Shown: positions 3,744-26,672 of the stretch, one piece after another | Position numbering within the stretch: the stretch's first letter is position 1 | Layout: each line of letters starts with the position of its first letter | Assembly (NCBI GenBank): GCA_947452065.1 | Contig: CANGBB010000002.1 | Span: forward strand, 248,001 to 312,000 | DNA length: 64,000 bases | DNA from: Gammaproteobacteria bacterium | GTDB taxonomy: Bacteria; Pseudomonadota; Gammaproteobacteria; Steroidobacterales; Steroidobacteraceae | Direction: 5' to 3' | Translations under genes and position numbers: made by a program | The notes under the pieces: model-generated | What the model was told of the DNA's origin: nothing | Database searches by the model: none | What the model saw: only the letters and a program-made list of their open reading frames with translations

Positions 3744-3819
3744 GCCGGAGTAGCTCAGTTGGTAGAGCGGCGCATTCGTAATGCGTAGGTCGTAGGTTCG
3801 ATTCCTATCTCCGGCACCA
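3744..3819 (+). tRNA. tRNA-Thr (anticodon CGT), CCA encoded
   Basis: A full cloverleaf can be drawn. The acceptor arm GCCGGAG pairs with CTCCGGC. The D-loop has AGCTCAGTTGGTAGAGC. The anticodon loop is ATTCGTAAT with anticodon CGT, decoding ACG. The T-arm contains the GGTTCGATTCC loop. A discriminator A is followed by an encoded CCA. The sequence closely resembles E. coli thrW, a known phage integration site. The metal island begins about 250 bases downstream, but no second copy of the tRNA 3' end was found by eye. Confidence 0.97.
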
Positions 3820-4068
3820 ATACGCCTTGTCAGACTACTCTCAGTCGGGCGTTTCCAGTTCCAGATACCCCCAATTCCTGCAGCGGTTCTCTGCATTCTG
3901 CGTGTGCCACCAGTCGCCAGAACCGGAGCTGAATGGCGCGAGTTCGCTTCCTTATTGCTCTCTGCTCTCTCGAGCCTGTTACAAACTTGTGCTCTCTAGC
4001 CTACGCACAACACCAATTCGATCAACGCCTTGTACGTGTGTCACAGAGGCGAGTTTTCCATCGTGATT
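3820..4068. other. Non-coding stretch between tRNA-Thr and the first repeat copy
   Basis: No credible gene is seen in this relatively AT-rich stretch. The short open frames here have no start signal or recognisable product. It separates tRNA-Thr from the left copy of the gene-end repeat and may contain the original junction of the inserted DNA. Confidence 0.5.
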
Positions 4069-4229
4069 GGATGGGCAAAGCATCACGGCAAACTGGCGGC
4101 GCCTCCCGCGCACGGCATCCAGTACGTCCCCTCGCGCTTGTTCGACGCCACTAGTGCCCGGTAGGCATGCAGCGGGCCCTCGTACTCCAGAATCCCTTTG
4201 TAGTGTTGCTTCGCCTTCCTTGACTGGGC
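4069..4229 (-). pseudogene. Left copy of the gene-end repeat: C-terminal fragment of the 10164-11123 gene
   Basis: Read on the minus strand, this encodes a near-copy of the last 40 or so residues of the gene at 10164-11123. The shared segments are KG-x-x-EYEGPLHAYRALV and SNKREGTYWMPCAGGAA, ending in LP and a stop. The two copies are in direct orientation about 6.1 kb apart and share most bases from the stop codon to the KQ-x-x-KG codons. The distal edge holds cttcgccttccttgactggg, which reappears with one change at 10137-10156, at the outer edge of the other copy. This indicates recombination rather than simple divergence. The fragment has no start and is presumably not expressed. Confidence 0.8.
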
Positions 4230-4279
4230 CCGCGAGTTTGTATGGTAGGCCGCCTGCTAATGCGCTACCCTAATTCAGA

Positions 4280-4600
4280 GTGCTAAAACTTCGTAACCAA
4301 CTCCTGAGCCGATTATCCCCGCGACTCCTAATCGCGGCGGTGCTGTGCGCATTGGTGTTGAACAGCGTCGCCTACCTGACGCACCGACACTATGAGTCGG
4401 TCTATCAAGGCAGCAATGGTCACACCGAACTGTGCGGCTACTGCGCCACCTTCGGCTCGCTGGGTGCGCCCCCCAAGCTTTCTGCCTCCACGCAGCGGTT
4501 GCTGGCACTAGTTCTGCTGACCACGACTTTCCTGCTCGCTGCCCCCGTAGTTCAGCGATTCATCACCTCCGCGCGACCCCGCGCTCCGCCTCGCTCCTGA
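4280..4600 (+). CDS. DUF2946-like small membrane protein
   Basis: A 106-residue protein with a GTG start. The N-terminal hydrophobic helix (LLIAAVLCALVLNSVAYL) is followed by a His/Cys-rich stretch (HRHYESVYQGSNGHTELCGYCATFG). A second hydrophobic helix (LLALVLLTTTFLLAAPVV) and a basic tail (ITSARPRAPPRS) complete it. This helix-H..CxxC-helix-basic-tail plan matches DUF2946-type proteins, which are often encoded next to TonB receptors for metals. Position immediately before a TonB receptor and near nikR supports a metal-handling role, perhaps periplasmic binding or delivery; the function is inferred only. Confidence 0.65.
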   Translation: MLKLRNQLLSRLSPRLLIAAVLCALVLNSVAYLTHRHYESVYQGSNGHTELCGYCATFGSLGAPPKLSASTQRLLALVLLTTTFLLAAPVVQRFITSARPRAPPRS

Positions 4601-4719
4601 ATCCAACTCCCTAGACCGACCATTGCACGTGCCGCATTGAGGCGCGGGGAGCAAGCTGGTCGTTTGCCGTCGCGGTCAACGCCGCGCGCGGCTCATTGGA
4701 TTCGATTGGAGCATTCAAC

Positions 4720-6861
4720 GTGAACACATTGACTAGGCACGCCAGTCTGATGCTGGCTTCCACTTTCATGGCCGGTGCCGCGCTGGCGGACGACGTCGCA
4801 GCCGGCAATGCCGGTACCAGAACTCTTGATGAAATCGTCATCACGGCTCAGCATCTTAATGATCGCCGAGGAGGAATCGAGACCCAGACTGGCGCATCGA
4901 CTTACTCGATCGACGAGGCGGCGATCTTGGCCACTCCGGGCGGGGACAACACTTTGCTCAACCAGGTGATCCTGCAGGCACCCTCTGTGGTGCAGGATTC
5001 CTTCGGTCAACTGCACGTGCGCGGTGATCACAACGACGTGCAGTACCGGCTCAACGGCGTCATCCTTCCTGAAGGCATCAGTGTCTTCGGCCAGTCGCTG
5101 AGTCCGCGATTGATCTCCTCGCTGAAGCTGGTAACGGGCGCGCTTCCAGCAGAATACGGCCTGCGCACCGCTGGCATCATCGACATGACGACCAAGAGCG
5201 GAGTGCTCGATACCGGCGGTTCGGTCTCACTCTATGGAGGCAGCCATGGGACGGTGCAGCCGAGCTTCAATTACGGCGGACGGAGCGGGAGCTTGAGCTA
5301 TTTTGTTTCCGGCGACCTGCTGCGGAACGATCTCGGCATCGAGTCGCCGGATGGGCGCAGCAATCCACTGCACGACCACACGACCCAGCTCCATGGGTTC
5401 GGCTACTTCGAGGACATCCTCGATTCGGCTAATCGTCTTTCCCTGATCCTGGGCACTTCCAGCGGCAAGTTCCAGATCCCGAACCAGCAGGGACTGCAGC
5501 CCGGCCTCGGCCTGACCGTGAACGGCCAATCCGCTTACCCGAGTGAAAGCCTGGATGAGAATCAGCGCGAGCTGACGCACTACGCCATCGTCACCTGGCA
5601 GCACGCTCAGGGCCAACTGGACTGGCAAAGCTCGCTGACCACCAGGTACTCGAGCCTGTCATTCAAGCCAGATTCATTGGGCGATCTGCTCTACGACGGT
5701 ATCGCCCAAGATGCCTTCAAGCGGGACGCGGCGCTTGGCTGGCAGACTGACATCTCGTACATGCTCACCGCCGGCCACACCCTGCGTGGGGGCTGGTACC
5801 TACAGCACGACAATACGACCAGCATTGCGAACTCGCAGGTGCTGCCGACTGATGCGGACGGCAACCCGCTCAGTGACCGACCGGTCTCCATCGCTGATAA
5901 CGGCTCGCAGCAGCAGTGGATCCAGAGCGTCTACCTACAGGATGAGTGGCAGGCGGCTACGGCGCTGACGGTCAACTACGGACTGCGCTTTGATCATTAC
6001 ACTGGGTACTCGAGCGGAAGCCAGCTCAGTCCGCGACTGAACGCGGTGTGGAGGAGCGGTCCGGACACGACGCTGCATGCGGGCTACTCCCGCTATTTCA
6101 CGCCTCCGCCGTTCGAGTTGGTGGGTACTGAGAGCGTAGCTAAGTTCACCGGCACCACGGCAGCGACGGAGGTGACGACCTCGTCCTCGCCGCTGGCAGA
6201 GAGGTCAGACTACTATGACCTGGGTCTGGAGCAGAAGGTCGGGGACCACCTGACTGTTGCGGTGGACGGGTACTATCGCAAGTCCGCGCATCTAATCGAC
6301 GAAGGGCAGTTCGGGGCGCCCATTATTCTCACGCCATTCAACTATGCGCAGGGCGTCATCAAGGGTGCGGAGTTCAGCGTGAACTACGACCGGGAAGGAT
6401 TCAGCACCTATGCCAACCTAGCCTTCTCGAGCGCGCGCGGCCAGCAGATCGAGTCATCCCAGTTCAATTTTGGTCAGGACGAGCTCGACTACATCGCTGC
6501 TCACTCTATCCACCTCGACCACGAACAGCGGGTCACGGCGTCTGCGGGCGCTTCCTGGCTGGTGGCCGGCTCGCGGCTGAGTGCGGATCTGCTGTTTGGC
6601 ACCGGACTGCGTGCCGACCTGACACTGCCTGATGGAAGTGATGTGCCCAACGGCGATCATTTGCCAACGTACACACAGGTCAATGTCGGCGCGAGCCATG
6701 CATTTCAGCGTGAAGGCCCGGGTGCCCTGACGCTGCGCTTCGACGTCATCAATCTCTTCGACAAGGTCTACGAGATACGCGACGGCTCCGGAGTGGGCGT
6801 GGGGGCGCCGCAGTTCGGACCGCGGCGCGGTCTGTTTGTGGGCGCTTCTATGACGCTGTAG
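4720..6861 (+). CDS. TonB-dependent outer-membrane receptor (metal island, first)
   Basis: A 713-residue outer-membrane receptor. The GTG at 4720 is preceded by GGAG at an 8-base spacing and opens a signal peptide (LMLASTFMAGAALADD); a TTG 24 bases upstream is in frame but lacks a good site. Next comes a TonB-box-like segment (LDEIVITAQ), then the plug domain (LHVRGDHNDVQYRLNGV, ALPAEYGLRTAGIIDMTTKSG) and a 22-strand-type barrel. It ends with a typical hydrophobic last strand in Leu (LFVGASMTL). The substrate is unknown; co-location with DUF2946-like and nikR genes suggests a metal chelate. No NikR-like site was seen upstream of it, in contrast to the second receptor. Confidence 0.9.
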   Translation: MNTLTRHASLMLASTFMAGAALADDVAAGNAGTRTLDEIVITAQHLNDRRGGIETQTGASTYSIDEAAILATPGGDNTLLNQVILQAPSVVQDSFGQLHVRGDHNDVQYRLNGVILPEGISVFGQSLSPRLISSLKLVTGALPAEYGLRTAGIIDMTTKSGVLDTGGSVSLYGGSHGTVQPSFNYGGRSGSLSYFVSGDLLRNDLGIESPDGRSNPLHDHTTQLHGFGYFEDILDSANRLSLILGTSSGKFQIPNQQGLQPGLGLTVNGQSAYPSESLDENQRELTHYAIVTWQHAQGQLDWQSSLTTRYSSLSFKPDSLGDLLYDGIAQDAFKRDAALGWQTDISYMLTAGHTLRGGWYLQHDNTTSIANSQVLPTDADGNPLSDRPVSIADNGSQQQWIQSVYLQDEWQAATALTVNYGLRFDHYTGYSSGSQLSPRLNAVWRSGPDTTLHAGYSRYFTPPPFELVGTESVAKFTGTTAATEVTTSSSPLAERSDYYDLGLEQKVGDHLTVAVDGYYRKSAHLIDEGQFGAPIILTPFNYAQGVIKGAEFSVNYDREGFSTYANLAFSSARGQQIESSQFNFGQDELDYIAAHSIHLDHEQRVTASAGASWLVAGSRLSADLLFGTGLRADLTLPDGSDVPNGDHLPTYTQVNVGASHAFQREGPGALTLRFDVINLFDKVYEIRDGSGVGVGAPQFGPRRGLFVGASMTL

Positions 6862-7191
6862 TAGCCAGAAACTACGCATCATTAGGAACCGATTAATGAT
6901 CACGCACGGGGGCGATTGCCCAAAGTGAATTCTCACCCTGGGGCTGTGTCTGCCGTTCTTTGTGGCAGTTGCGATCCGACCCTTGGCGAGCAATTTCCCC
7001 CGTGTGTGCGAAGCTGCATTATCAAGACCCAATTCGGGCAACTGAAGAATTTGGCGGTCGTGATCTAGCTGTGCGTATCGCGTGCGCTGGTGCGAGCACG
7101 CCACGAGCACGACCGGAGTCTGTTGGCGGCGGACCAAGATCTTTGGCTGTACGGGCTAGTAAATCGCGCTCCCGAGACTCTGACGGTAAGC
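6862..7191. other. Intergenic region between two convergent TonB receptor genes
   Basis: No convincing gene. A 7-bp inverted repeat, ATCATTA (6878-6884) and TAATGAT (6894-6900), lies just past the first receptor's stop. It has no T-run, so it is at most a weak bidirectional terminator. Open frames in this stretch lack start signals and recognisable products. Confidence 0.4.
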
Positions 7192-9333
7192 TCAGAAGCG
7201 AGTGCGGAAGGTCAATCGGAGCGTTCTGGGCTCACCGGGATGAACATGCAAATCGTTGACCGGGTCGGCTTCACTCGGCAGACGTGATTCGTAGTAGTAC
7301 TCGATGTCATCGACCTTGCGATCCAGCAGATTGAAGACATCCAGCGTCAGTTCCGCCCGAGATCCCATCTTGCGTCCGATGCGCAAGTTGGTGGTCAGAG
7401 ACGAACGAGACCGTACGCTATTGTCTTCGATCAGTGCGCCCGGACCCAGGTAGCGCCACTGGAGTGCCGCAGTCCATGCGCCGAGCTCCCGCAGCGTGAA
7501 TCCCAGAGAAACCACCTGGTCTACGGAGTTGGGGATATGGTCGCCGACGGGGTCGTAGGTCGAGAAGCGTGCCCTCGTAAAGGCGATGTCGGCATCGATG
7601 AGCACCCAGCGGGCCGGGACATAATGGTTGTTGAGCTCGATGCCGCGCCGTGTACTCGGCCTGTTAGGCTCGGTGGTACCATCGTCTCCGACGTAGACGA
7701 GTTCCGAGTCAAAATCGAGGCGCCATAGCGCCATAGAGGTTTGCAGCCCCGGGATCCACTCACTACGCGCCCCGACCTCGTAGCCCCGCGAGGCAACCAA
7801 GCCCGGAATAGGATCGACCGCATCGCCAGTTTTGGGATCGACGTGCGCTGTCGTGCCGCGGGCATCATTGCTGTGGAAGCCGCGCCCTGCGTTGAAGAAG
7901 AATTCGGTCCTGTCCCACGGGCCTGCGATCAGGGAGAGCTTGGGTGAGTAGAGATGCGCGGACGCTGAGCCGAAATTGCGCTCATCCACCCGGCTATCAA
8001 CTCCAAACTGCGCCACATCTGAGCGGATGCCGGCAATGCCACGGAGCCAAGGCGCGACTTGCAGCGTGGCCTGGCCGTAAAAGCCAGCGAGGGTCTCCTG
8101 GACCTGATCGTCGCGGGTCGTGCCGATGATCCGGCGCGCTTCGGTGTCGTACAGGCTGACATGGATGCGGTCGTGCCGCACCTGTAGCCCGATCTCGGTG
8201 CGAACCGGCAGGTTGCACAGCTTGAGGTCGGAGGCGTGGTTGACCGAGAGACCGTAGATCTGCCGGTGCTCCTGCTGCGAGAACTGATCTCCCGTCGTCG
8301 GGCGGTCGAGCGAGTAGGTGAAGTCGGAGAACAGCTTGAGGCGGTAGTCGATGGCGTAAGCGATTGCGCGAGTCGCGCTGTCCGCACCCTTCCGGTGCCA
8401 CTCGCCGGAGAGACTGTAGCGGCCAGTCTCGCCGCCGTCGGTCAGATCCACGGCATCGAAGCGCCCGAAGGAACGACCCTGGAAGGTGCCATCATCGATG
8501 AGACGTTGCGGGATCTGGTCGGTCGAGTCCCAGTGGGCGCTGTATCCCATTAGGCTGGTGCTCCAGCCCTGCGCTAGGTCTCCGCCGCTCAGGGTCAGCA
8601 GCCCGTTCGACTTGTTCAGGCGCTCCGGTAGCGTCCACGGGCCGTCATTGTGCTGGAATTCGGCGCCTGCCAGTAACTGCAGGCCGTTGCCCAGTGCCGT
8701 GGAGCCTGCTGCGACGGCCCGCTGGAAGTTGTCTTCGCCCACGGTGGCGACGGCGAAGGGCGTGGCGACCGACGTTCGGTAGGCGATGTCGGCCGAGCCC
8801 GCGGAGCCAAAGTCGCCATTCTTTGCGAAGTAGGGACCTTTGCGGTAGTCGATATGATCGATGAGTTCCGGGATGAGAAAGTTCAGATCTGAATAACCCT
8901 GTCCATGCGCGTTGGTGGGCATGTTGACGGGCAGGTCATTAACGAACGTCGCAAAATCCGTACCGTGGTCAAGGTTGAAGCCTCGCAGGAAGTACTGGTT
9001 GGCCTTGCCATCACCGGAGTGCTGGGTGACGATCATGCCCGGCACGAACTCCAGTACCTCGCCGGGTCGCAGCGTAGGGCGCTCGTCGACTAGATCGGAG
9101 CTGATAGTGCCCTCCGAGGCCGCGTCAGAGGTGCCGATCCCGTTGTCATAGTGACGAGCCGTCACGATGACCTGTTCGAGTAATGCACCTTCATTAACGT
9201 CTTGCGCAACACTCTCGGCGCCAGTTGCCGCCGTTGCCCATGCAATGCCGAATGACAGGACGGCAGCTAGGAGAGATAGGGATGTCGCGAGCTTCGAAGT
9301 GCAACATCGGACTGGAGCTGTTGAGCTGCGCAT
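7192..9333 (-). CDS. TonB-dependent receptor, probably nickel/cobalt uptake under NikR
   Basis: A 713-residue receptor from the ATG at 9333, opening a signal sequence (KLATSLSLLAAVLSFGIAWATAATGA). The frame is open to an ATG at 9396, but that codon lies inside the tandem-repeat/operator region, so the downstream start is preferred. It has a TonB-box-like LEQVIVTA, a plug with LRPGEVLEFVPGMIVTQHSGDGKANQYFLRG-type features, FAKNGDFGSAG, and a barrel ending in LRLTFRTRF with terminal Phe. The plug (GFNLDHGTDF, VNMPTNAHGQGYSD) resembles the receptor group found next to metal regulators. It lies downstream of nikR on the same strand, with a NikR-like site between; nickel or cobalt chelate import is inferred from this. 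Confidence 0.88.
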   Translation of the reverse strand: MRSSTAPVRCCTSKLATSLSLLAAVLSFGIAWATAATGAESVAQDVNEGALLEQVIVTARHYDNGIGTSDAASEGTISSDLVDERPTLRPGEVLEFVPGMIVTQHSGDGKANQYFLRGFNLDHGTDFATFVNDLPVNMPTNAHGQGYSDLNFLIPELIDHIDYRKGPYFAKNGDFGSAGSADIAYRTSVATPFAVATVGEDNFQRAVAAGSTALGNGLQLLAGAEFQHNDGPWTLPERLNKSNGLLTLSGGDLAQGWSTSLMGYSAHWDSTDQIPQRLIDDGTFQGRSFGRFDAVDLTDGGETGRYSLSGEWHRKGADSATRAIAYAIDYRLKLFSDFTYSLDRPTTGDQFSQQEHRQIYGLSVNHASDLKLCNLPVRTEIGLQVRHDRIHVSLYDTEARRIIGTTRDDQVQETLAGFYGQATLQVAPWLRGIAGIRSDVAQFGVDSRVDERNFGSASAHLYSPKLSLIAGPWDRTEFFFNAGRGFHSNDARGTTAHVDPKTGDAVDPIPGLVASRGYEVGARSEWIPGLQTSMALWRLDFDSELVYVGDDGTTEPNRPSTRRGIELNNHYVPARWVLIDADIAFTRARFSTYDPVGDHIPNSVDQVVSLGFTLRELGAWTAALQWRYLGPGALIEDNSVRSRSSLTTNLRIGRKMGSRAELTLDVFNLLDRKVDDIEYYYESRLPSEADPVNDLHVHPGEPRTLRLTFRTRF

Positions 9334-9371
9334 ATCACTGCTTCCCGGGCAACAGGTCTCACCAGAGAATA

Positions 9372-9398
9372 GTATGATGAGTCTTATAATCTTCATAC
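9372..9398 (-). promoter_or_regulatory. Candidate NikR operator
   Basis: GTATGA (9372-9377) and TCATAC (9393-9398) form an inverted pair with a 15-base spacer. E. coli NikR recognises GTATGA-N16-TCATAC, so this is one base shorter than the known operator. It lies between nikR and the receptor gene, 39 bases upstream of the chosen receptor start, and overlaps TATAAT-like elements. The assignment is inference from motif and position. Confidence 0.6.
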
Positions 9399-9421
9399 AA
9401 GATTATAATCTTCATACAAGA
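9384..9421. repeat. Perfect 19-bp tandem repeat, two units
   Basis: The unit ttataatcttcatacaaga occurs at 9384-9402 and again, identical, at 9403-9421. Each unit carries one TCATAC NikR-type half-site and a TATAAT-like box (on the minus strand GTATGA and ATTATAA). The duplication therefore doubles both the half-site and the possible -10 element upstream of the receptor gene. Confidence 0.85.
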
Positions 9422-9534
9422 TTTGTTTGGGTAAAGTTTTGTCAGCGAATTCGTATCTCCAGAGTCAAGCGAACACACAGGTGCACGGCGGCAATGCCCT
9501 TGCCTACTTTTACAGACAAATGGGGAGCGATATG

Positions 9535-10026
9535 TCAGTGCTTGTGACGCAGCCGGCGCTTTCTGGCCTTCGCTGCCATCGAAGTTCGGGAGGCGTGTAG
9601 CGGAGCGTGTGGGCTTTCCCCGCTTGTTGCCAGTGAAACCACGTGAAGATGGCCGTGAGTGACACCTGGCTGTGTGATGACGGATTGCGCGAATGCCTGA
9701 AGTTCGTCCGCGTGCCCCCTTAGGATGATCGTCTCTACGCAGCGATCGTGGTCTAGGTGGGCGTGCATGGTCGAGACTGTCAGTTCATGATGATCATGCT
9801 GAAGCTCAGTCAGGCGAGAGGCGAGCTGACGCTGGTGATGGTTATACACATAGCTCAGGGTGGCAACGCAAATCGCCTCTGGCCGACTTTGAACCAGTGT
9901 TCCCATGAGGTCATTTCGCAGCAGGTCTCTGAATGCCTCCGAGCGGTTCGCATAGCCACGGGATCTGACCAGCGCCTCGAAGGCGTCTGCCAGATCATCG
10001 TCCAAAGACATCGTCAGGCGCTTCAC
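9535..10026 (-). CDS. nikR: Nickel-responsive ribbon-helix-helix regulator NikR
   Basis: A 163-residue regulator. The N-terminus (MKRLTMSLDDDLADAFEALVRSRGYANRSEAFRDLLR) is a ribbon-helix-helix DNA-binding domain. The ACT-like metal-sensing domain has the NikR ligand pattern: His in HDHHELTVSTMHAHLDHDRCVE (first His, then H-x-H, then Cys about 6 residues on), equivalent to H76/H87/H89/C95 of E. coli NikR. It is about 30 residues longer than E. coli NikR (133) because of a C-terminal His- and basic-rich tail (SPHAPLHASR..KARKRRLRHKH). The start is GTG at 10026. It is upstream of and codirectional with the second TonB receptor, its likely target. Confidence 0.93.
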   Translation of the reverse strand: MKRLTMSLDDDLADAFEALVRSRGYANRSEAFRDLLRNDLMGTLVQSRPEAICVATLSYVYNHHQRQLASRLTELQHDHHELTVSTMHAHLDHDRCVETIILRGHADELQAFAQSVITQPGVTHGHLHVVSLATSGESPHAPLHASRTSMAAKARKRRLRHKH

Positions 10027-10134
10027 TGTTAGCTAATCCTATGAGTGGCTGTAGTCACTTTACCGGCAGAACACACTATGAGCATAAAGACGAAGCGTCA
10101 ATCCAGGCGTGACATCACCGAAAGGGTTGTGCGG

Positions 10135-10290
10135 TGCTTCGCCTTCCTTGATTGGGCAAAGCATCACGGCAAACCCGCGGCGCCTCCCGCGCACGGCATC
10201 CAGTACGTCCCCTCGCGCTTGTTCGACTCCACGAGTGCCCGGTAGGCATGCAGCGGGCCCTCGTACTCTGGACGCCCTTTGTGGCGTTGC
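10135..10290. repeat. Right copy of the gene-end direct repeat flanking the metal island
   Basis: This is the direct-orientation partner of 4069-4229. From gggcaaagcatcacggcaaa onward it follows the 3' end of the gene at 10164-11123 with scattered mismatches. Its left edge, 10135-10157, matches the right edge of the left copy (4206-4229) with one substitution in the 20-base core. The roughly 5.9 kb between the two edges is exactly the DUF2946/TonB/TonB/nikR segment. Confidence 0.8.
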
Positions 10291-11123
10291 TTCACCTTGA
10301 ACAGGTCATTGGGTTTGCCGCTCGATAGCCCGGCGCGTCGCATCACCCGAATGCCCACCGTCTTCACGGCCTTGAACGTCCACAGGGCCTTGAAGACCGC
10401 CGCCTGACCGTCGGTGCATTCGATCGGTCCGTGAGGCCAGGAATCCAGCGTCACCCACTTGAAGTCGGCGGAGAACGGCCCGTGAACAGGAATCCTTGGA
10501 TCGGCGTCGGTACTCGGCTCCGGCGCAAGGCCTGCTTTGAGGTGAACGATCCCACCGCCGTAGGACGTGAAGCGCTCCTCCAGAGGTAGCCACTCGATCC
10601 CGGTGGGAAACGGCACGCCACGCATCTGTGCCGCTCTGGGTGCGATCACCCGGATGCCAGCGCCTGGCACGCGGATACGATCAAAGATGGAAGGATCCGC
10701 CCACAAGCGCATCAGGCTCCGCGACAGGAGGACCGGCTCACGACGAGCATCACCTAGTCGCCACACACCATCGCTAAGGTCGGTGACGCCGTCTCGGCTC
10801 TCGATGTCTAGGGCCATGCGCAGTCGTGATCGCAGCCAGTTCTCATCGAGCATGATCGCGGCGCGATCCTCGGGGGCGAGCGGGATCGGGCCACAGTCCG
10901 GGCACTGGCAGTTCTGTCCTCCATTGCCGCCCCCGACGATCTGGCCGTTGTGCAACTGGCAGTACGGGCAGAGCGTGAAGGTGCGGTTCACAACGGTTGC
11001 TTTGATCGCGGGCGCGAGGGTGGCGCAGGCGCTTATTTCGGTCGGCGATAACGCCCCGCGAAATACCGGCGTCCCGCCCGCGAACAAGCGGCAGACCAAA
11101 GACCATGCCTCGTGCGACGACAT
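10164..11123 (-). CDS. Uncharacterised protein with a CxxC...CxxC zinc-ribbon-like motif
   Basis: A 319-residue protein not recognised as any known family. The region around residues 50-80 (CPYCQLHNGQIVGGG...CQCPDCG) has two CxxC pairs about 18 residues apart, consistent with a zinc ribbon. The remainder is mixed alpha/beta with no transmembrane segments. It lies 3 bases downstream of the 410-residue gene on the same strand, so both form one operon divergent from the XRE/ImmA cassette. A duplicate of its C-terminal 40 or so codons lies at 4069-4229. Its place at the edge of a mobile element suggests accessory function; nothing in the sequence fixes a biochemical role. Confidence 0.7.
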   Translation of the reverse strand: MSSHEAWSLVCRLFAGGTPVFRGALSPTEISACATLAPAIKATVVNRTFTLCPYCQLHNGQIVGGGNGGQNCQCPDCGPIPLAPEDRAAIMLDENWLRSRLRMALDIESRDGVTDLSDGVWRLGDARREPVLLSRSLMRLWADPSIFDRIRVPGAGIRVIAPRAAQMRGVPFPTGIEWLPLEERFTSYGGGIVHLKAGLAPEPSTDADPRIPVHGPFSADFKWVTLDSWPHGPIECTDGQAAVFKALWTFKAVKTVGIRVMRRAGLSSGKPNDLFKVKQRHKGRPEYEGPLHAYRALVESNKREGTYWMPCAGGAAGLP

Positions 11124-11126: not shown

Positions 11127-12359
11127 TCAGTGCGCAAAAGCCAGTTGCAGATCCGAGGCGTCGCTTGAGGGCGATTCCTGCGCGATGAGCGTTTGCCCTT
11201 TCTGAAGAATGCCCAGTGATACCAGGTATCCCTCCAACTGTGCCTGCAGCGCCGCGTCGAACTTATGCAGGTTCAGCCGGCCCTTGCGCGTCACTTCAAT
11301 GGTAACCACCTTCGCGCGCGTTTTGCCGGGTTGAGGCGCGTAGTGCAGGTTGATGTGGGCGGACGTGACGAGCCAGTTTTCGGCCAGCGGGCCGGGCAAC
11401 TTTTCGTCCAGCAAATCAGTGACACATCGGTGCTCGCTCGAGGCCATCGCCGTGCACTCGATCTTCAGCTGATTGTCTGGGCTGAGCAGGCTGATCGACT
11501 TCACCTGTAGCACGCTAAACCCGTCCGCTATGGCCTGCTGGACCTCGAACCCGAATCGCAGCGCCGAGAGATCCAGCGTCGGCGGCAGCATACGGTGGGC
11601 ATCGAGCGTCACGTGTAAAAGGTGCTTGGCAAAAGCCTTCAGCAGCATCTGGTGATACCGCGCTCCGCCCTTGACCAGCGAGCGGGTCACGCCCGTGAGG
11701 CAGGAGTACTCGACGACCGAGTGAATGTTGGGGTTGCCCACATGGCGCTTGAGTTCATCGCCTTCGAACTCCAGGCGCACCATCGGCAGATCCTTGACGT
11801 GCACGCTGAGCAGATACACGCCGGGACTGCGCTCGAACACATAGGCCTTGCTGCGATCACCGCACTGCATCTCACGCTGGTAGAAGGCCGAGACTTCCTT
11901 GCGCAGCGACGCCAGCGCGGCCTCCGAGGTGTCGGGCGCCTTCTTCACGCCGAGCTCATGCTGCTGGGCCTGTGCGACTTGCTGCTCGAAGTGATCAACA
12001 TCGCCGGCACGCTCAAAGAGCTCCGGGTGTTTCACGTATAGCCAAAAGGAGCGGTGCATATCGCTCTGGCAGGTGGCCAGCCCCGTCAGGGCGGCGCCAT
12101 GACTGGTGGCTACCTGGAACATCGCGTGCGTCCCTGCGCTGTCTCCAAGCTCGACGCTGGCGCGCAACTTGGCGGTCAGTGCATCGCGCACCGAGACGTC
12201 CGGCCAGGTGTGCACGGCCTCGATCAACGCCCGTGTGGTTTCAGGTTTGTCGCTCCACGCGAAATGCTCGGGCATCCTCAGGCCGTGGCCCGTTAGGAAC
12301 TCACGCAGCGTGGCGTCCACCGGCAACTCGTGTAGCAACTCGATCCAGGTTTTTTTCAT
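11127..12359 (-). CDS. Uncharacterised 410-residue accessory protein
   Basis: The ATG at 12359 is preceded by AAAAGGA at a suitable distance; a GTG 18 bases upstream is also in frame. The product has no transmembrane helices or recognised catalytic motif. Residues 1-150 are helix-rich (HELPVDATLREFLTGHGLRMPEHFAW...). A region near residues 170-350 is predicted by eye to be alternating beta/alpha (VYLLSVHVKDLPMVRLEFEGDEL). The end is acidic and Ser-rich. It is translated before, and 3 bases from, the zinc-ribbon gene, so the two products probably act together. Regulation by the divergent XRE repressor through the roughly 300-base intergenic region is plausible. Family unknown. Confidence 0.7.
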   Translation of the reverse strand: MKKTWIELLHELPVDATLREFLTGHGLRMPEHFAWSDKPETTRALIEAVHTWPDVSVRDALTAKLRASVELGDSAGTHAMFQVATSHGAALTGLATCQSDMHRSFWLYVKHPELFERAGDVDHFEQQVAQAQQHELGVKKAPDTSEAALASLRKEVSAFYQREMQCGDRSKAYVFERSPGVYLLSVHVKDLPMVRLEFEGDELKRHVGNPNIHSVVEYSCLTGVTRSLVKGGARYHQMLLKAFAKHLLHVTLDAHRMLPPTLDLSALRFGFEVQQAIADGFSVLQVKSISLLSPDNQLKIECTAMASSEHRCVTDLLDEKLPGPLAENWLVTSAHINLHYAPQPGKTRAKVVTIEVTRKGRLNLHKFDAALQAQLEGYLVSLGILQKGQTLIAQESPSSDASDLQLAFAH

Positions 12360-12595
12360 GTTGTTGGTCCTTTTCACGTGTGGGTCGGAGGCTAAACCCG
12401 GTTTCAGATCGGTCTAAAACCGCTGTCAGTCCTGTTCCCGCTTGGGTCGGAGACCGCAGAGAGAGGGGACGGTGGGTGCTGGCCGGCGACGATTTGGCTA
12501 AACAAATATCCCGTCTAAGTAAAGCCGCGGGATACAGAGGGATTGTGTCCCGCTGACTCCCTCGTGTCAAACCACGTACCACATATGGCGTATAT

Positions 12596-14242: not shown

Positions 14243-14703
14243 AAGCACACGCACCGCAGGAGCAGGCCGTCAGTGTGGCGGCCAGGGTTGCGCAAATTCC
14301 ACACCTGTCTATGGACGGCCTCTGGGCGCTGTGGGACGAGCACTTTGACAAGCGCCCGAATCACCATCATCGGACCTGGCTCGAGTCGCGCCTAGCGTAC
14401 AAGATTCAGGAGCACGCCTTCGGCGGCCTGAAGGGCGCCACTCGCCGCAAGCTCGAAGAGATTGGCGAGAGCGGACTGTTGCCCACACGCCTGCGTCGCG
14501 ATGCGGACCGATTGCTCCCGGGTAGCGTGCTCACGCGAACCTTCGATGACATCGAACATCATGTCCTCGTCCGAGGCATGCGCGACTTCGAGTACAACGG
14601 AAAACGCTTCTCGAGCCTCACCGCCATCGCCAAGGCGATCAGCGGGAGCTCTTGTTCAGGGCCCCTGTTCTTTGGCCTCAAGACCAGGAAGAAGGCCCGA
14701 TGA
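14239..14703 (+). CDS. DUF2924 protein
   Basis: A 154-residue protein, TTG start with GGGAG upstream. It contains WDEHFDKRPNHHHRTWLESRLAYKIQEHAFGGL and then PGSVLTRTFDDIEHHVLVRGMRDFEYNGKRFSSLTAIAKAISGSSCSGPLFFGL. The second part is the DUF2924 hallmark (pattern PGTxLxRxWxGxxHxVxVxxxGFxYxGxxYxSLSxIAxxITGxxWSGPxFFGL). DUF2924 genes are regularly found directly before large serine recombinases in proteobacterial phage-like elements. The stop overlaps the recombinase start (ATGA). A role with the recombinase, for example as a directionality or DNA-binding factor, is inference. Confidence 0.88.
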   Translation: MKAHAPQEQAVSVAARVAQIPHLSMDGLWALWDEHFDKRPNHHHRTWLESRLAYKIQEHAFGGLKGATRRKLEEIGESGLLPTRLRRDADRLLPGSVLTRTFDDIEHHVLVRGMRDFEYNGKRFSSLTAIAKAISGSSCSGPLFFGLKTRKKAR

Positions 14704-16109
14704 GGACCTCACGTACCACGCCGCCGGTGCTGACGCCGCGCAAGCGCTGTGCAATCTACACGCGCAAGTCCACCGACGAGGGACTTGATCAGGAGTACAA
14801 CAGCCTGGAAGCCCAGCGCGATGCCGGGCTCGCCTTTATCGCTAGCCAGTGCTCGGAGGGCTGGGTCCCGGTCGCTGATGGCTACGACGATGGCGGCTAC
14901 TCCGGCGGCAACGTCGAGCGCCCTGCGCTCAGGCGATTGTTGGAGGACATCGACGCCGGACGCATCGACATCGTGGTGGTCTACAAGATCGATCGACTGA
15001 CTCGAAGCCTTGCCGACTTTGCAAAGCTGGTCGAAGTGTTTGATCGAAACAACGTGAGCTTCGTGTCGGTCACGCAGCAGTTCAACACCACCACCTCGAT
15101 GGGGCGATTGACGCTGAACATCCTGCTCTCCTTCGCGCAGTTTGAGCGCGAGGTCACCGGCGAGCGCATCCGCGACAAGATCGCGGCGAGTAAGGCCAAG
15201 GGCATGTGGATGGGAGGCGTGCCACCGTTGGGCTATGACGTGATCGAGCGAAAGCTCGTGATCAACGACTTGGAGGCGGATCTCGTTCGAGACATCTTCA
15301 GGCGCTACGCCGAGTGTGGCTCGGCAGCGCAGCTGGTCAGGGAGCTTCATTATGAGGGGCGTACCACCAAGGCGTGGCAGACGCAGACCGGGAGGCTGCG
15401 GGAAGGACGCCCCATCGATCAGCAGTGCATCTTTGCGATGTTGCGCAACCGGATCTACCTGGGCGAGATTCAGCACAAGGGCAAGAGTTACCCCGGGCAG
15501 CACGAGGCCATCATCTCCGAGGAGCTGTGGGACATCGTTCATGCGTTCATTGAGCGGCGCAAGCAAGGGCCGCGCGAGGGGATGGTTCGTCATCCGGCGT
15601 TGCTCTCCGGGCTGCTCCATGCGCCCGACGGGCAGTTGATGATTCACTGCTCAACCCGAAAAAGAAGCGGGCGGATTTACCGCTACTACATTCCCTACCT
15701 AGAAAAGCGGCGCCACGCGGGCGCAACGCTCAGGCCTGAGGCCACCCGCATCGGACCGCTCCCGGCCGCCGAGCTTGAGGCCGCAGTGCTCGAGCAGATT
15801 CAGCAAACGCTTAGCGCGCCGGAGATGTTGATCGCCACGTGGCGCTCCTGTCAGCGGCACCCGCGTGGAGCCGCACTCGATGAGGCCCAGGTGGTGGTGG
15901 CCATGCAGCGCATTGGCGCGGTGTGGGAGCAGCTCTTTCCGCCCGAGCAGAGGCGTATCACGCAGTTGCTCATCGAGCGGATTCAGATGCACTCGCAGGG
16001 GCTCGATATTCGCTGGCGCGAAGATGGCTGGCTTGGGCTGGATGGAGATATCACCGGGCACCCGCTTGTGGCCGAGTCCGTCGGTGACGCAGAGGAGGTG
16101 CCGGCATGA
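14700..16109 (+). CDS. Large serine recombinase (integrase)
   Basis: A 469-residue site-specific recombinase. The N-terminal resolvase domain holds the nucleophilic Ser (CAIYTRKSTDEGLDQEYNSLEAQ), the VVYKIDRLTRSLADF segment, and FDREVTGERIRDKI-type residues (FEREVTGERIRDKIAASKAKGMWMGG). The middle (PPLGYDV..KLVINDLEADLVRDIFRRYAE) is the recombinase domain. The zinc-ribbon region of related enzymes is reduced (CSTRKRSGRIYRYYIP), keeping only one Cys of the usual set. It is about 450-500 residues, normal for this subgroup. It probably integrates and excises the surrounding element. ATGA overlaps tie it to the genes on both sides. Confidence 0.93.
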   Translation: MRTSRTTPPVLTPRKRCAIYTRKSTDEGLDQEYNSLEAQRDAGLAFIASQCSEGWVPVADGYDDGGYSGGNVERPALRRLLEDIDAGRIDIVVVYKIDRLTRSLADFAKLVEVFDRNNVSFVSVTQQFNTTTSMGRLTLNILLSFAQFEREVTGERIRDKIAASKAKGMWMGGVPPLGYDVIERKLVINDLEADLVRDIFRRYAECGSAAQLVRELHYEGRTTKAWQTQTGRLREGRPIDQQCIFAMLRNRIYLGEIQHKGKSYPGQHEAIISEELWDIVHAFIERRKQGPREGMVRHPALLSGLLHAPDGQLMIHCSTRKRSGRIYRYYIPYLEKRRHAGATLRPEATRIGPLPAAELEAAVLEQIQQTLSAPEMLIATWRSCQRHPRGAALDEAQVVVAMQRIGAVWEQLFPPEQRRITQLLIERIQMHSQGLDIRWREDGWLGLDGDITGHPLVAESVGDAEEVPA

Positions 16110-17013: not shown

Positions 17014-17502
17014 ATGAACGAACTCACCATCCTGCCCGACCGACTCACCGCGATGAGTGAAGCGGACCTCGCAGCACTTCCCGTCGAGCAGCTCTACGAG
17101 GTGCATCACAACCTCGCGCAGCTCATCGATTGGGTCAAGGCGGCGCAGACCAAGACCCATGCCGCTTTGCAGCGCCGCTACACCGAGCTCGAGCGCACGA
17201 CGCGTGCACAGATTGGCAAAGACTTTGGCGTGGTGCATCTCCAGGACGGAGCGATTCGCGTCACGGTCGACACGCCCAAGCGTGTGTCCTGGGATCAGAA
17301 AAAGCTGGCCGCGATGGCCAAGCGTATTGCCGAGAGCGGGGATCGCGTCGAGGACTATCTCGATATTGATTTCAGCGTACCGGAGTCGCGCTACACCAAC
17401 TGGCCCACGGCGCTGCGCGAGCAGTTTGCCTCGGCGCGGACCGTCAAACCCGGCAAGCGGGCGTACGAGCTCTCGCGTAACGCTGAAAGCGGGGTGGTGT
17501 GA
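17014..17502 (+). CDS. Phage-type hypothetical protein
   Basis: A 162-residue protein; ATG at 17014 after a G-rich ribosome site, stop overlapping the next start. The first 100 residues are predicted helical with a coiled-coil-like segment (VEQLYEVHHNLAQLIDWVKAAQTKTHAALQRRYTELERTTRAQ). Then comes a beta segment (HLQDGAIRVTVDTPKRVSWDQKKLAAMAKRIAESG). The second segment resembles proteins encoded before Sak4-like ATPases in phage replication modules. No catalytic residues recognised. Probably part of the recombination/replication module. Confidence 0.75.
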   Translation: MNELTILPDRLTAMSEADLAALPVEQLYEVHHNLAQLIDWVKAAQTKTHAALQRRYTELERTTRAQIGKDFGVVHLQDGAIRVTVDTPKRVSWDQKKLAAMAKRIAESGDRVEDYLDIDFSVPESRYTNWPTALREQFASARTVKPGKRAYELSRNAESGVV

Positions 17503-18320
17503 TGAGCCTACCCATCATTACCGCTGATCAGCGGCTGTGCGAGAAAAAGGGCGTGAAGCTGGTGCTGCTTGGCAAGAGTGGTATCGGCAAGACCACCCAG
17601 CTCAAAACGCTACCCGAGGCGAGCACACTGTTCGTCGATCTGGAGGCCGGTGACCTTGCGGTCAAGGACTGGCGGGGTGACTGCGTACGCCCGGCCACGT
17701 GGCCAGAGTTTCGCGATCTGGTGGTGTTTCTCGCCGGCCCCAATCCGGCGCTACCGCCCGAGGCACCGTACTCGCAGGCGCACTACCAGCACGTCTGCGA
17801 GCGCTACGGCGATCCGGCGCAACTGGCCAAGTACGACACCTACTTCGTTGACAGCATCACCGTGTTGGCCAGGCTGGCACTGATCTGGGCCAAGACGCAG
17901 CCGCAGGCGATATCCGAGCGCACTGGCAAACCGGACACGCGCGGCGCCTACGGGCTGCTCGGCACCGAGATGCTCGGGGCGCTCATGCACCTGCAGCACG
18001 CACGCGGCAAGCACGTGGTGTTCGTCTCGATCCTCGATGAGCGCATGGACGACTTCAACCGCAAGGTGTTCGTGCCGCAGATCGAGGGGGCCAAGACCTC
18101 GGCTGAACTGCCCGGCATCGTCGATGAGGTCGTGACGCTGGCCGAGATCAAGGCCGAGGACGGCTCGTCCTACCGAGCCTTCGTTACGCAAACCATGAAC
18201 CCCTATGGCTTTCCGGCCAAGGACCGCTCCGGTCAGCTCGATCTGCTGGAACCCCCGGATCTGCGCGCTCTGATCGCCAAGTGCGCGGCCGCAACCCACA
18301 CGCAAACACACAAGGAGTAA
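17502..18320 (+). CDS. Sak4-like AAA/RecA-fold ATP-binding protein
   Basis: A 272-residue protein. Walker A is GKSGIGKTTQ near residue 25, and Walker B-type DTYFVDSIT lies near 110. A following segment, HVVFVSILDE, is in the position of motif 3. This is the layout of the phage nucleotide-binding (AAA_24) family, which includes Sak4 single-strand annealing or recombination ATPases. The neighbours (SSB-like protein, Fe-S nuclease, primase) fit a recombination-dependent replication module. The ATG at 17502 overlaps the previous stop. Confidence 0.85.
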   Translation: MSLPIITADQRLCEKKGVKLVLLGKSGIGKTTQLKTLPEASTLFVDLEAGDLAVKDWRGDCVRPATWPEFRDLVVFLAGPNPALPPEAPYSQAHYQHVCERYGDPAQLAKYDTYFVDSITVLARLALIWAKTQPQAISERTGKPDTRGAYGLLGTEMLGALMHLQHARGKHVVFVSILDERMDDFNRKVFVPQIEGAKTSAELPGIVDEVVTLAEIKAEDGSSYRAFVTQTMNPYGFPAKDRSGQLDLLEPPDLRALIAKCAAATHTQTHKE

Positions 18321-18323
18321 CCC

Positions 18324-18953
18324 ATGTCCAACTGGAATGATTTCAACGACGCCCAACAGCAACAGACCTTCGACCTGATCCCCAAGGGGACGGTGGCCAA
18401 GGTGCGCATGACCATCAAGCCCGGTGGTCACGACGACCCAGCCCAGGGTTGGAGCGGGGGGTATGCGACTCAGAGCTTTGAGACCGGCTCGGTTTTCCTG
18501 TCCTGTGAGTTTGTCGTGATTGAGGGCGAGTACGCGCGCCGCAAGATGTGGAGCAACGTCGGCTTGCACAGCGCCAAGGGTCCGGCTTGGGCAAACATGG
18601 GCCGCACTTTTGTGCGCGCTGCACTCAACAGCGCCCGTAACGTTCGCCCGCAGGACAACTCGCCGCAGGCGGCCGCTGCACGGCGCATCTCCGGCTTTAA
18701 CGAGTTGGATGGGCTGGAGTTTGTGGCGCGCATCGATGTGGAGAAGGATGGCCGCGGCGAGTTGAGGAACGTGGTCAAGCTCGCCGTTGAGCCCGATCAT
18801 CCCGACTACGCACGCGGCACTGGAGGCGCAAGCGGCGCGCCTGTGCGCCCCACGACGGCGTCGGTTGCCACGCCAGCCCCCATGGCCGCACCGGCTGCTG
18901 CTGCGCCCGCACAGCGCCCCGCCGTGCCCGGCAAACCGGCCTGGGCGCAGTGA
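18324..18953 (+). CDS. SSB-like / DUF669-like replication protein
   Basis: A 209-residue protein 3 bases after the ATPase gene. The beta-rich core (FDLIPKGTVAKVRMTIKPGGH..., FLSCEFVVIEGEYARRKMWSNVGLH, ELDGLEFVARIDVEKDGRGELRNVVKLAVEP) is followed by a disordered, Ala/Pro-rich tail. An OB-fold-like core plus a flexible tail suits a single-strand DNA-binding protein partnering the Sak4-like ATPase. Resemblance to DUF669 is remembered, not tested. The tail ends in WAQ rather than the acidic tip of canonical SSB. Confidence 0.65.
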   Translation: MSNWNDFNDAQQQQTFDLIPKGTVAKVRMTIKPGGHDDPAQGWSGGYATQSFETGSVFLSCEFVVIEGEYARRKMWSNVGLHSAKGPAWANMGRTFVRAALNSARNVRPQDNSPQAAAARRISGFNELDGLEFVARIDVEKDGRGELRNVVKLAVEPDHPDYARGTGGASGAPVRPTTASVATPAPMAAPAAAAPAQRPAVPGKPAWAQ

Positions 18954-18962
18954 GGGAGGTGC

Positions 18963-19451
18963 GTGAAATGTTGGGTCTGCAAACGACAGGCACGCGGCTA
19001 CGGCCACGCGGACGTGCGCTCTGGGATCGGGCGCGCCGAGCGCTACCCCATGGACTGGGTGTTTTGTTCACGCCGCTGTCAGGACGCGTTTCACGCGCTC
19101 TACGGCGTCTGGGCTCGGGTGAAGGGCGGCATGCAGGACATGCGGGAGGTCAACATGATTGACTCCTCTGATGTCGAGCGCGCCTCGATGCGCAAGTGCC
19201 TCAAGCCCTTTGGCGAGGCAGCCACTGCGATTGGCTTCGACAAACCGCTGGCGCAGTACTCCGAGGCGGAGGCGCTGCAGGTCATCGATGCCATCGTCAC
19301 GGGCTACACCGAGGCGATGATCGAGCACCACGAGGCGAGCAAGTTCCCGCCGGTGCGGGGCTTGGCGCCCACGTCCGATCCGATGCTCAACCCCTTCGCC
19401 GACTTGCAGGACGGGTTGGACTCGGATCAGCGCAAGGGGGCGAAGCGATGA
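18963..19451 (+). CDS. Small zinc-finger protein (DUF6511-like)
   Basis: A 162-residue protein with GTG start. The N-terminus has CWVCKRQARGYGH... and VFCSRRCQDAFHALYG, two CxxC/CxxxC pairs likely binding one zinc ion. This arrangement recalls the DUF6511 family of phage-like elements. The C-terminal half is helical with no recognised motif. An internal ATG at 19155 (MIDSSDVERASMRKCLKPFG) could be an alternative start of a separate product. It ends in a 4-base overlap with the nuclease gene. Confidence 0.65.
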   Translation: MKCWVCKRQARGYGHADVRSGIGRAERYPMDWVFCSRRCQDAFHALYGVWARVKGGMQDMREVNMIDSSDVERASMRKCLKPFGEAATAIGFDKPLAQYSEAEALQVIDAIVTGYTEAMIEHHEASKFPPVRGLAPTSDPMLNPFADLQDGLDSDQRKGAKR

Positions 19452-20185
19452 TCGACTTCAACTCCTCCTCGAGCATTCCCGCCCAACTCGCCTCGCTACT
19501 CGACGCCGGCCTGCAACGTGTGCGGGCAGCGCAAACGCCACGCGAGTACCTCGGTGCCTCGCGGCTCGGTGCCGCCTGTGAGCGCGCTCTGCAGTACGAG
19601 TTCGCTAGAGCGCCGGTCGATGCTGGGCGCGAGACCGAGGGGCGGATCCTGCGCATCTTTGAACGTGGTCATGTGATGGAGGACTGCATGGTCGCCTGGC
19701 TCCGTGCTGCGGGGTTTGACCTGCGCACCCGCAAAGCCAACGGCGAGCAGTTTGGTTTCTCGGCAATCGATGGGCGGCTTCAAGGTCACGTCGATGGCGT
19801 GATCGTCGGCGGTCCCGAGGGCTTTGCCTATCCCGCGCTCTGGGAGTGCAAGTGTCTGGGCTCCAAGTCCTGGCGGGACCTGGAGAGAAACAGGCTCGCG
19901 ATATCCAAGCCCGTCTATCACGCGCAGGTCGTGCTCTATCAGGCCTATCTGCAGCTGCATGAGCACCCGGCGATCTTCACCGCGATCAATGCCGACACGA
20001 TGGAGATTTACACCGAACTGGTGCCCTTTGATGCCGCGCTTGCACAGCGCATGTCCGACCGGGCCGTGAAGGTGATCGCCGCCACGGATGCGGGCGAGTT
20101 GCTGGCCCGCGCTTTCAACGATCCGACGCACTTCGAGTGTCGCATGTGCGCCTGGCAGGAGCGGTGCTGGAGGGTCACGCCATGA
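19448..20185 (+). CDS. Cas4/RecB-like PD-(D/E)XK nuclease with an Fe-S-type cysteine set
   Basis: A 245-residue nuclease. The PD-(D/E)XK motifs are GHVDGVIVGG (catalytic Asp near residue 117) and WECKCLGSKSW (E-x-K near 136). A Cys in LGAACERAL near residue 40 and C-x2-C-x5-C near the end (CRMCAWQERC) reproduce the four-cysteine 4Fe-4S arrangement of Cas4/AddB-type exonucleases. The QVVLYQAYL segment is the conserved downstream motif (Q-x-x-x-Y). No cas genes or CRISPR are nearby; it belongs to the element's recombination module. Confidence 0.85.
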   Translation: MIDFNSSSSIPAQLASLLDAGLQRVRAAQTPREYLGASRLGAACERALQYEFARAPVDAGRETEGRILRIFERGHVMEDCMVAWLRAAGFDLRTRKANGEQFGFSAIDGRLQGHVDGVIVGGPEGFAYPALWECKCLGSKSWRDLERNRLAISKPVYHAQVVLYQAYLQLHEHPAIFTAINADTMEIYTELVPFDAALAQRMSDRAVKVIAATDAGELLARAFNDPTHFECRMCAWQERCWRVTP

Positions 20186-20421
20186 CCGACGCTACGCCGC
20201 GACAGCTCCTCTTCGAGCGCTTGGTCGATGCGCAGGAGGCCGCGCACTGCCTGAACGTGCCGCTGTATCTGCTCACTCACCCGGAGGAGCGCCAGCGCCT
20301 CGGGGTCCCGCACTACCGAGTAGGCAAGCTCGTGCGCTTCAAGGTGCGAGAGCTCATGCGTTGGATCGAGTCGCAACAGAGGTTTCGACGCGAGGTCGCA
20401 CAAGGGGGTAGGGATGCTTGA
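20182..20421 (+). CDS. Small winged-helix DNA-binding protein
   Basis: A 79-residue protein; ATG overlaps the nuclease stop by 4 bases. LVDAQEAAHCLNVPLYLLTHPEERQRLGVPHYRVGKLVRFKVRELMRWIESQ is an excisionase-type (HTH_17) winged helix-turn-helix with the V-x-F wing ending. Its gene is overlapped by the primase start. It could be an origin- or operator-binding protein of the element. Confidence 0.75.
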   Translation: MTDATPRQLLFERLVDAQEAAHCLNVPLYLLTHPEERQRLGVPHYRVGKLVRFKVRELMRWIESQQRFRREVAQGGRDA

Positions 20422-22696: not shown

Positions 22697-22749
22697 GTGC
22701 ATGAAAAACCGGTTGTCTGACGCAGCTGACGCGCTTTCACGTAACCCCC

Positions 22750-22772
22750 TATATACGCGTACGCGCGCGCGT
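22750..22772. other. 23-bp strictly alternating pyrimidine-purine tract
   Basis: From t22750 to t22772 every step alternates pyrimidine and purine: first TA repeats, then CG repeats. Such tracts can form left-handed or easily melted DNA. It lies just past the primase gene and before the RuvC-like gene, where an origin element could sit; that function is inference. Confidence 0.6.
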
Positions 22773-22835
22773 CATGGAGAGTTACGACAAACAGTGTCGG
22801 CTGCGTCAGTGCCCGAGAACGAGAGGACTGGAGAG

Positions 22836-23312
22836 ATGACCATCACGACGACGTTAGCCCTTGATCTGGGCACCACCACCGGCTGGGCGTTGCGCACACG
22901 CGATGGCGCCATCACCAGCGGCAGGGTGAACTTTCGGCCGCAGCGCTTCGAGGGCGGCGGGATGCGCTTTCTGCGCTTCAAGCGCTGGCTCACCGAGCTC
23001 AAGAGCCATGCCGATGGCATCGACGCGCTGCACTTCGAGGAGGTTCGTCGCCACGTCTCGACCGATGCGGCCCACGCCTACGGCGGCTTTCTGGCCACGC
23101 TCACCAGCTGGTGCGAGCACCACCAGATCCCGTATCAGGGGGTGCCGGTGGGGACGATCAAGAAACACGCGACCGGCAAGGGCAATGCGAGCAAGGAGGA
23201 GATGATCGCCGCGATGCGCGAGCGCGGTCACGCGCCGCTCGATGACAACGAGGCCGATGCGCTCGCCATCCTGCACTGGGCGCTTGCGTTGCACGCGGCG
23301 CAGGAGGCGTGA
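22836..23312 (+). CDS. RuvC-like Holliday-junction resolvase fold protein
   Basis: A 158-residue protein, ATG with GAGAG upstream. The N-terminus LALDLGTTTGWALRTRDG is the RNase H-fold first strand with catalytic Asp. A conserved acidic residue lies in LHFEEV near residue 68, and the C-terminal LDDNEADALAILHWAL supplies the last acidic residues (N-E-A-D-A-L-A). This is the RuvC-like pattern found in phage replication modules. It probably resolves recombination intermediates before packaging. Confidence 0.8.
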   Translation: MTITTTLALDLGTTTGWALRTRDGAITSGRVNFRPQRFEGGGMRFLRFKRWLTELKSHADGIDALHFEEVRRHVSTDAAHAYGGFLATLTSWCEHHQIPYQGVPVGTIKKHATGKGNASKEEMIAAMRERGHAPLDDNEADALAILHWALALHAAQEA

Positions 23313-23313
23313 G

Positions 23314-23926: not shown

Positions 23927-23974
23927 GTTGGCGCGTGCGGTCGTGGGTGCAGGGCAGTGCGCGCGAGCGCGCGG

Positions 23975-24004: not shown

Positions 24005-24070
24005 AGCGCTAGGATTTGGCTATCGTCGGGACAGAAGTTTGAGCAGCACGTCTGCAAGCGTTTTCACCCA

Positions 24071-24101: not shown

Positions 24102-24116
24102 ATGACTGGGACCTCC

Positions 24117-26655: not shown

Positions 26656-26672
26656 TGCCGTGCCCGGCTCGC

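Follow-up and report, generated by a model that had tools for sequence, protein, structure and literature searches.

Contig CANGBB010000002.1 of a Gammaproteobacteria bacterium from the Steroidobacteraceae (assembly GCA_947452065.1) carries four predicted genes between two direct copies of the 3′ end of one phage gene, and family matches (Pfam/NCBIfam) assign these four to a DUF2946 protein, two TonB-dependent receptors and the nickel-responsive regulator NikR. We analysed the 64 000 nucleotides around this metal block (positions 248,001 to 312,000 of the contig; hereafter the window, whose own numbering is used throughout), in which a tRNA-Thr gene lies on one side of the block and a phage gene encoding 319 amino acids, here called the terminal gene, on the other. 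The features of this part of the window are as follows.

3744..3819, plus strand: tRNA-Thr (CGT), from the tRNA gene call and the lspA-ispH-tRNA-Thr synteny
3820..4082, minus strand: conserved native phage end (attachment side), from an nhmmer profile
4083..4217, minus strand: left (displaced) copy of the terminal gene's 3′ end with its stop codon, from alignment
4207..4229, no strand: inner 23-bp direct repeat, left copy, from alignment
4280..4600, plus strand: DUF2946 protein (Pfam PF11162, E = 2.9e-07)
4696..6861, plus strand: TonB-dependent receptor 1 (Pfam), start likely at 4720
7192..9396, minus strand: TonB-dependent receptor 2 (Pfam), start likely at 9333
9372..9398, no strand: NikR-type operator GTATGA-N15-TCATAC, 38 bp upstream of the likely receptor 2 start (9333)
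9535..10026, minus strand: nikR, nickel-responsive regulator (NF002815, PF08753)
10135..10157, no strand: inner 23-bp direct repeat, right copy, from alignment
10153..10298, minus strand: right copy of the 146-bp repeat, forming the terminal gene's present 3′ end and the 11 nt that follow its stop, from alignment
10164..11123, minus strand: 319-amino-acid terminal phage gene, with 62 related loci

The two direct repeats (4072–4217 and 10153–10298) were identical at 135 of 146 positions in a gapless local alignment (11 mismatches, 92.5%), another alignment giving 91% identity over 151 nt. A sequence-only reading of this DNA had described repeats of about 150 bp at both block ends, derived from the 3′ coding end of the gene at 10164–11123, and both statements held: the right copy is the working end of that open reading frame together with 11 nt past its stop, and the left copy comprises the coding end and stop codon (4083–4085) without the upstream part of the gene. 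Only two long copies were found genome-wide (2.17-Mb assembly in 10 contigs, 96% complete), the query itself scoring E = 7.2e-88, the other copy 1.5e-56, the right 23-mer 0.001 and the next match elsewhere 0.62. The inner edges share a 23-mer with a single mismatch (4207–4229 versus 10135–10157), much as had been read there (20–22 bp with one change), but its register differs from that of the 146-bp repeat, as it overlaps the left copy at the coding-side end and the right copy at the stop-side end. The 23-mer joins post-stop-codon sequence to repeat-start sequence, an arrangement that looks like a junction of tandem copies, and elsewhere on the plus strand of the window at most 16 of its 23 positions were matched. 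The polarity of the 11 differences was tried as a guide to the original copy and left this undecided (with four relatives, the right copy was ancestral at five positions and the left at three, with three unclear); the copies may represent either an old duplication or two alleles.

Loci related to the terminal gene contain a conserved stretch of about 260 bp between this gene, or the cargo that follows it, and a tRNA gene. When 21 relatives, the window not among them, were used to build a profile covering the final ∼120 nt of the gene together with this end, it matched positions 4205–3833 of the window (nhmmer, E = 4.6e-57), beside the left copy and next to tRNA-Thr. The native phage terminus therefore lies at tRNA-Thr and the 5.9-kb metal block inside the prophage, between the terminal gene and the attachment end. 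Of the metal island next to a phage gene that had been proposed, the boundaries formed by gene-end repeats stand, but the block is not free-standing, since beyond it come the phage end (3820–4082) and the junction with tRNA-Thr. Downstream of the right copy an end-only profile detected no clear similarity to the native element end beyond about 11–16 nt. Homology of this downstream sequence to the phage end was considered and rejected, since the profile match to hmm 169 was lost with the end-only profile, which reported 12 of 1000 block shuffles at E ≤ 100 but not the real sequence.

The position of the native end at a tRNA gene is common in this family. A visible end was present in 52 related loci (21 of them used in the profile), which with the window gave 54 ends, and was missing from 10 of the 62, mostly trimmed viral records or fragments. 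Forty-one of the 54 ends lay within 5–14 nt of a complete gene for tRNA (27 Phe, 11 Ala, 1 Met and, in the window alone, 1 Thr) or tmRNA (1), seven adjoined a tRNA 3′ half only (at least 34 of 48 positions like a probe) and six neither. The tRNA halves of some relatives are cut at the anticodon loop; the 3′ part of tRNA-Thr in the window would likewise be element-borne, with the junction at the anticodon loop (∼3777–3785). Two loci (L074:11612-15682 and L115:11211-15836) showed a tRNA-Phe 3′ half (48 nt in L074) at the phage end and a complete tRNA-Phe about 4 kb further on, as though another element were wedged in between.

The phage side of the window contains the following features.

11127..12377, minus strand: companion phage gene of 416 amino acids, unknown function (PHROG, phrog_37634)
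14652..16109, plus strand: serine recombinase, presumed phage integrase (PF00239 and PF07508)
17499..30908, plus strand: phage replication and packaging genes, namely Sak4-like, Cas4-type exonuclease, primase, ParB-methylase, small and large terminase, and portal (family matches)

The 319-amino-acid protein gave no Pfam, PHROG or NCBIfam match. Its gene was detected in only one of the 60 relatives searched, the window's own genome, and in 62 other loci comprising 13 viral contigs and 49 genome contigs, the latter mostly titled Proteobacteria; the plasmid collection yielded one match (a plasmid of Eleftheria terrae) and the phage collection none. The order serine recombinase, IrrE, XRE, 416-amino-acid protein, 319-amino-acid protein, element end is largely conserved among these relatives and is also present in the window, where the metal block separates the last gene from the element end. 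Matches to the serine recombinase (54–76% identity to 14652–16109) occurred in 28 of the 52 listed related loci of at least 9 kb, many of the remainder being too short on that side, and no tyrosine integrase was matched in any of the eight related viral records searched (36–50 kb). The ends of this family, in which a serine recombinase is the one gene recognised as integrase-like, fall precisely at tRNA-Phe, -Ala, -Thr, -Met or tmRNA genes and carry a tRNA 3′ half. This suggests a serine-recombinase phage family that targets tRNA genes, and such targeting by a serine integrase would be unusual. The idea that the nearby serine recombinase mobilises the block through the repeats gained no support, and we infer that it more plausibly acts as the phage integrase at the tRNA end.

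The site that holds the metal block in the window was occupied by other genes in many relatives. Gene end and element end were contiguous in 22 of the 52 relatives with an end and separated in 27 (hand count), i.e. among 49 loci cargo was present or absent at one site with conserved phage flanks; the other three (L105, L117 and L118) retained a C-terminal gene fragment and the end only, L105 with a longer gene piece elsewhere. An empty site with a single gene end, expected by the sequence-only reading in related genomes, was thereby seen as the contiguous state in 22 of 49, but only in distant relatives (roughly 50–70% protein identity). The most frequent cargo was DUF2188 (23 loci, pieces 0.3–0.4 kb apart). 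Larger interruptions contained LysR and DJ-1/PfpI proteins (L087, pieces 5107 bp apart), a nitroreductase and DUF6920 (L103, 1940 bp) or a cluster of ArsR-like, glyoxalase, two LMWP-type and MIP proteins (L116:9367-11913, pieces 2699 bp apart) that we read from this combination of families as an arsenic-type operon, while the 711 bp between the pieces in L107 were not assigned to a family. On a maximum-likelihood tree of 57 terminal proteins (the window and 56 loci, six of the 62 being dropped for matches under 230 amino acids) the DUF2188 label required at least 12 gains or losses, eight of them forced by well-supported branches. The slot is generic and recurrent, with family members gaining and losing cargo there.

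Several relatives carry rearranged terminal genes. Genome G060 contained six terminal-gene matches (two on contig C166, which is L105, one on C17, which is L117, and others on C15, C243 and C84), four of which reach the 3′ end with differing 5′ break points. L117 has a pair of element ends that share 90% identity across 261 bp and lie about 0.8 kb from each other. In L118:3867-4441 a HicA-HicB-like pair, recognised by eye, immediately precedes a C-terminal piece of the terminal gene to which the element end is fused.

Within the block, NikR scored 183.7 bits against NF002815 (cutoff 83) and 101.9 against PF08753 (cutoff 22), giving both the ribbon-helix-helix (RHH) and the C-terminal nickel domain, and 150.7 against TIGR02793, below the cutoff of 175.45. 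The motif GTATGA-N13..17-TCATAC, which we take to represent the NikR-type consensus, had one match in the window and none in 100 shuffles; the site at 9372–9398 is the only one in the whole 2.17-Mb genome, and a further half-site TCATAC stands at 9412. Receptor 2 is probably switched by nickel through the adjacent NikR-type box, and nickel would also be its ligand. The relatives of receptor 2 share at most 50% identity with it, and in G004 one of them (C47:69098-71038) adjoins a nikR gene (C47:71251-71655). Receptor 1 was matched in 32 of 120 genomes drawn from the bacterial family (E ≤ 1e-80, own genome included), the best relative, of the same genus, being 69% identical; in all four loci read by eye, without a profile, a short Cys-containing protein resembling DUF2946 precedes it, and receptor 1 with a DUF2946-like gene is an ordinary module in this bacterial family. 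The receptor 1 and receptor 2 modules never occurred together in the stretches examined. As the sequence-only reading had noted, the block holds no transposase or tyrosine integrase: family searches found no transposase or other recombinase among its four genes, and with no obvious inverted repeat at its ends by eye it does not qualify as a composite transposon.

These gene distributions bear on the possibility, which we regard as quite unlikely, that the metal genes are old chromosomal genes flanked by chance by two separate phage insertions or remnants. The ordinary occurrence of receptor 1 and the DUF2946-like gene in the bacterial family and the nikR-receptor pair of G004 would fit it, as would a G+C content of the block (59.9%) not far from that of host DNA (64.1%, positions 1–3740) and phage (62.9%), but the two modules lay apart in the stretches examined, the right copy lacks a detectable phage end of its own beyond about 11–16 nt past the stop, and the common 23-mer at both inner edges would have to be coincidence. 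Host synteny also speaks against it. Genome G013 has lspA, ispH (72.8% identity over 394 amino acids) and tRNA-Thr, followed about 7 kb on by hemA and hemC, and the window has the same two groups with prophage and other DNA between them. Neither DUF2946, nor either receptor, nor nikR was matched (E ≤ 1e-5) in the tRNA-Thr stretches of 11 relatives; those of L155 and L156 stop at or close to the tRNA and several more have a different neighbourhood, which leaves most of the weight on G013. Vertical synteny of the metal genes, the finding that would have spoken for an old location, was accordingly not seen at tRNA-Thr in these 11 stretches, some of which stop at or near the tRNA. The co-occurrence of lspA and ispH on the left, and of hemA and hemC farther right, around tRNA-Thr in G013 likewise counts against an assembly or binning chimera joining two related phage ends. 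An assembly of 10 contigs, 96% complete and possibly from a metagenome, leaves some room for such an error, but a repeat of 146 bp at 92% is too short and too divergent to force a misjoin and the terminal gene frame is intact, which makes it highly improbable.

We consider it probable that the metal block is cargo in a prophage slot, between the terminal gene and the attachment end, and that it was inserted by recombination within the gene end. A serine-recombinase phage would have entered the chromosome at tRNA-Thr such that its terminal end adjoined the tRNA, and two pairs of metal-uptake genes, DUF2946 with one TonB receptor and nikR with the other, would have come to occupy the slot between its 319-amino-acid gene and the ∼260-bp attachment end. 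The block was probably inserted by recombination within the final ∼150 bp of that gene, which leaves the native gene end and phage end on one side, while on the other the reading frame is closed by the second gene end. The step itself would be one crossover with another DNA molecule that bears the block and a gene end like the native one; alternatively, a terminal-module exchange between two related phages could give the observed order. A tandem duplication may have come first, because the 23-mer looks like the junction of tandem copies. The proposal that the block was inserted by recombination via the repeat is thus upheld insofar as the insertion is tied to a duplicated gene 3′ end.

Several observations weigh against this interpretation. 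A plain single crossover does not explain the out-of-register 23-mer, and each copy has changes among the 11 bases that distinguish them. No relative with the same block was found, and the exact empty site is read from distant relatives. Long gene-end repeats around cargo were seen in the window only: of the 14 loci tested, eight gave none, four gave an overlapping-window artefact only and two a repeat, in L103 a direct repeat of the end that flanks its cargo (37 bp, 84%) and is the nearest parallel to the window, and in L117 the 261-bp repeat of the element end itself. On the tree the DUF2188 label was more clustered than expected by shuffling (18.0 changes on average; as low a number in 2 of 500 shuffles), and support was weak for 17 of the 54 inner branches. 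Receptor 1 had two pattern matches in viral contigs, neither of them a relative, and no nikR was matched in nine stretches around other receptor 2 relatives, its adjacency to such a receptor being seen in G004 only. A far attachment site was found neither in the window, where no second tRNA piece exceeded 13 nt, nor in the genome stretches of L078, L112 and L074 (60–69 kb each, E ≤ 0.01).

A dedicated integrative element offers a different account: it would recognise the terminal gene's 3′ end as a specific target site, bring a replacement end with it and be able to excise via the 23-bp core in the manner of the dusA islands, its recombinase being lost or acting in trans. The replaced end on the gene side, the displaced end on the other and the imperfect 23-bp direct repeat would suit such an element, and dusA islands are described as having a displaced gene end together with semiconserved repeats of 21 bp (PMC4482086). 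We nevertheless hold this to be unlikely, as the four block genes tested include no recombinase, the target is a rare phage gene and no such repeat was detected around most other cargoes of the slot; moreover, neither the block nor the 146-bp repeat turned up in a second genome in the searches made. The suggestion that the block can leave as a circle fared no better, with no sign of excision and no second genome containing the block in the searches made, and circle excision via the 23-mer was dropped as the main model because no second state supports it.

Returning to insertion through the gene end, a broader version can be put forward tentatively, in which the last ∼150 bp of the terminal gene serve as a recombination handle and modules composed of gene tail, cargo and attachment end with its tRNA half are swapped between phages of the family, the window being one exchange in which both tails were kept. 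Cargo and even tRNA target would then change together. Footprints of such swapping would be the C-terminal gene fragments joined to other DNA at different points (L105, L117, L118 and contig C15 of G060) and near-identical terminal genes with different tRNAs (L095 with Ala versus L096 with Phe).

The prophage itself matches the phage genes of the family as far as the portal at 30908. It looks truncated after the portal gene because the proteins tested beyond it gave no capsid or tail family, and its current mobility is doubtful because of this apparent truncation; neither complete structural genes, judged from the proteins tested, nor a second attachment site, both expected of a functional prophage, was found in the window. 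Directly after the portal (30996–35688) lie a DUF6152 protein and a third, large TonB-dependent receptor, the latter (32413–35688) matching phrog_5687, of unknown function, besides TonB-receptor domains.

What had looked like a lone metal island is, on this reading, an example of a slot that repeatedly receives cargo in a widespread and poorly annotated phage family of Proteobacteria. Nickel-type uptake genes, an arsenic-type operon, a nitroreductase and DUF2188 are among the contents of this slot. Related phage contigs can be screened for cargo between the terminal gene and the tRNA-side end. No title naming this family appeared among the papers listed from an open-licence library, which is not a claim that none exists, nor do we claim that serine recombinases acting at tRNA genes have gone unreported.

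Phage accessory cargo next to an attachment end is known from morons and lysogenic conversion. The metal block resembles moron cargo in that non-phage genes with their own regulator lie between the last phage gene and the attachment end and vary among related phages, but differs in encoding nickel-type uptake and in being bounded by duplicated phage-gene ends. NikR-regulated TonB-dependent nickel receptors are known from Helicobacter, and as in that system nikR adjoins a TonB receptor with a NikR-type palindrome upstream; unlike the E. coli NikR consensus, the spacer is 15 rather than 16 nt, and the ligand is putative. The dusA-associated integrase islands, as described in the text consulted (PMC4482086), have replaced and displaced gene ends and 21-bp repeats, and the window shares the two kinds of gene-end copies and an imperfect direct repeat of ∼21–23 bp; unlike those islands, the block sits at the 3′ rather than the 5′ end of a gene, this gene belongs to a phage rather than the host, and no integrase is found among the block genes. 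According to the consulted part of one review, mycobacteriophages with serine integrases (Int-S) do not target tRNA genes (PMC9262239). The present family is like these large serine integrase phages in having a serine recombinase near one prophage end, but unlike them, as far as that text describes them, in that 41 of its 54 ends abut tRNA or tmRNA genes.

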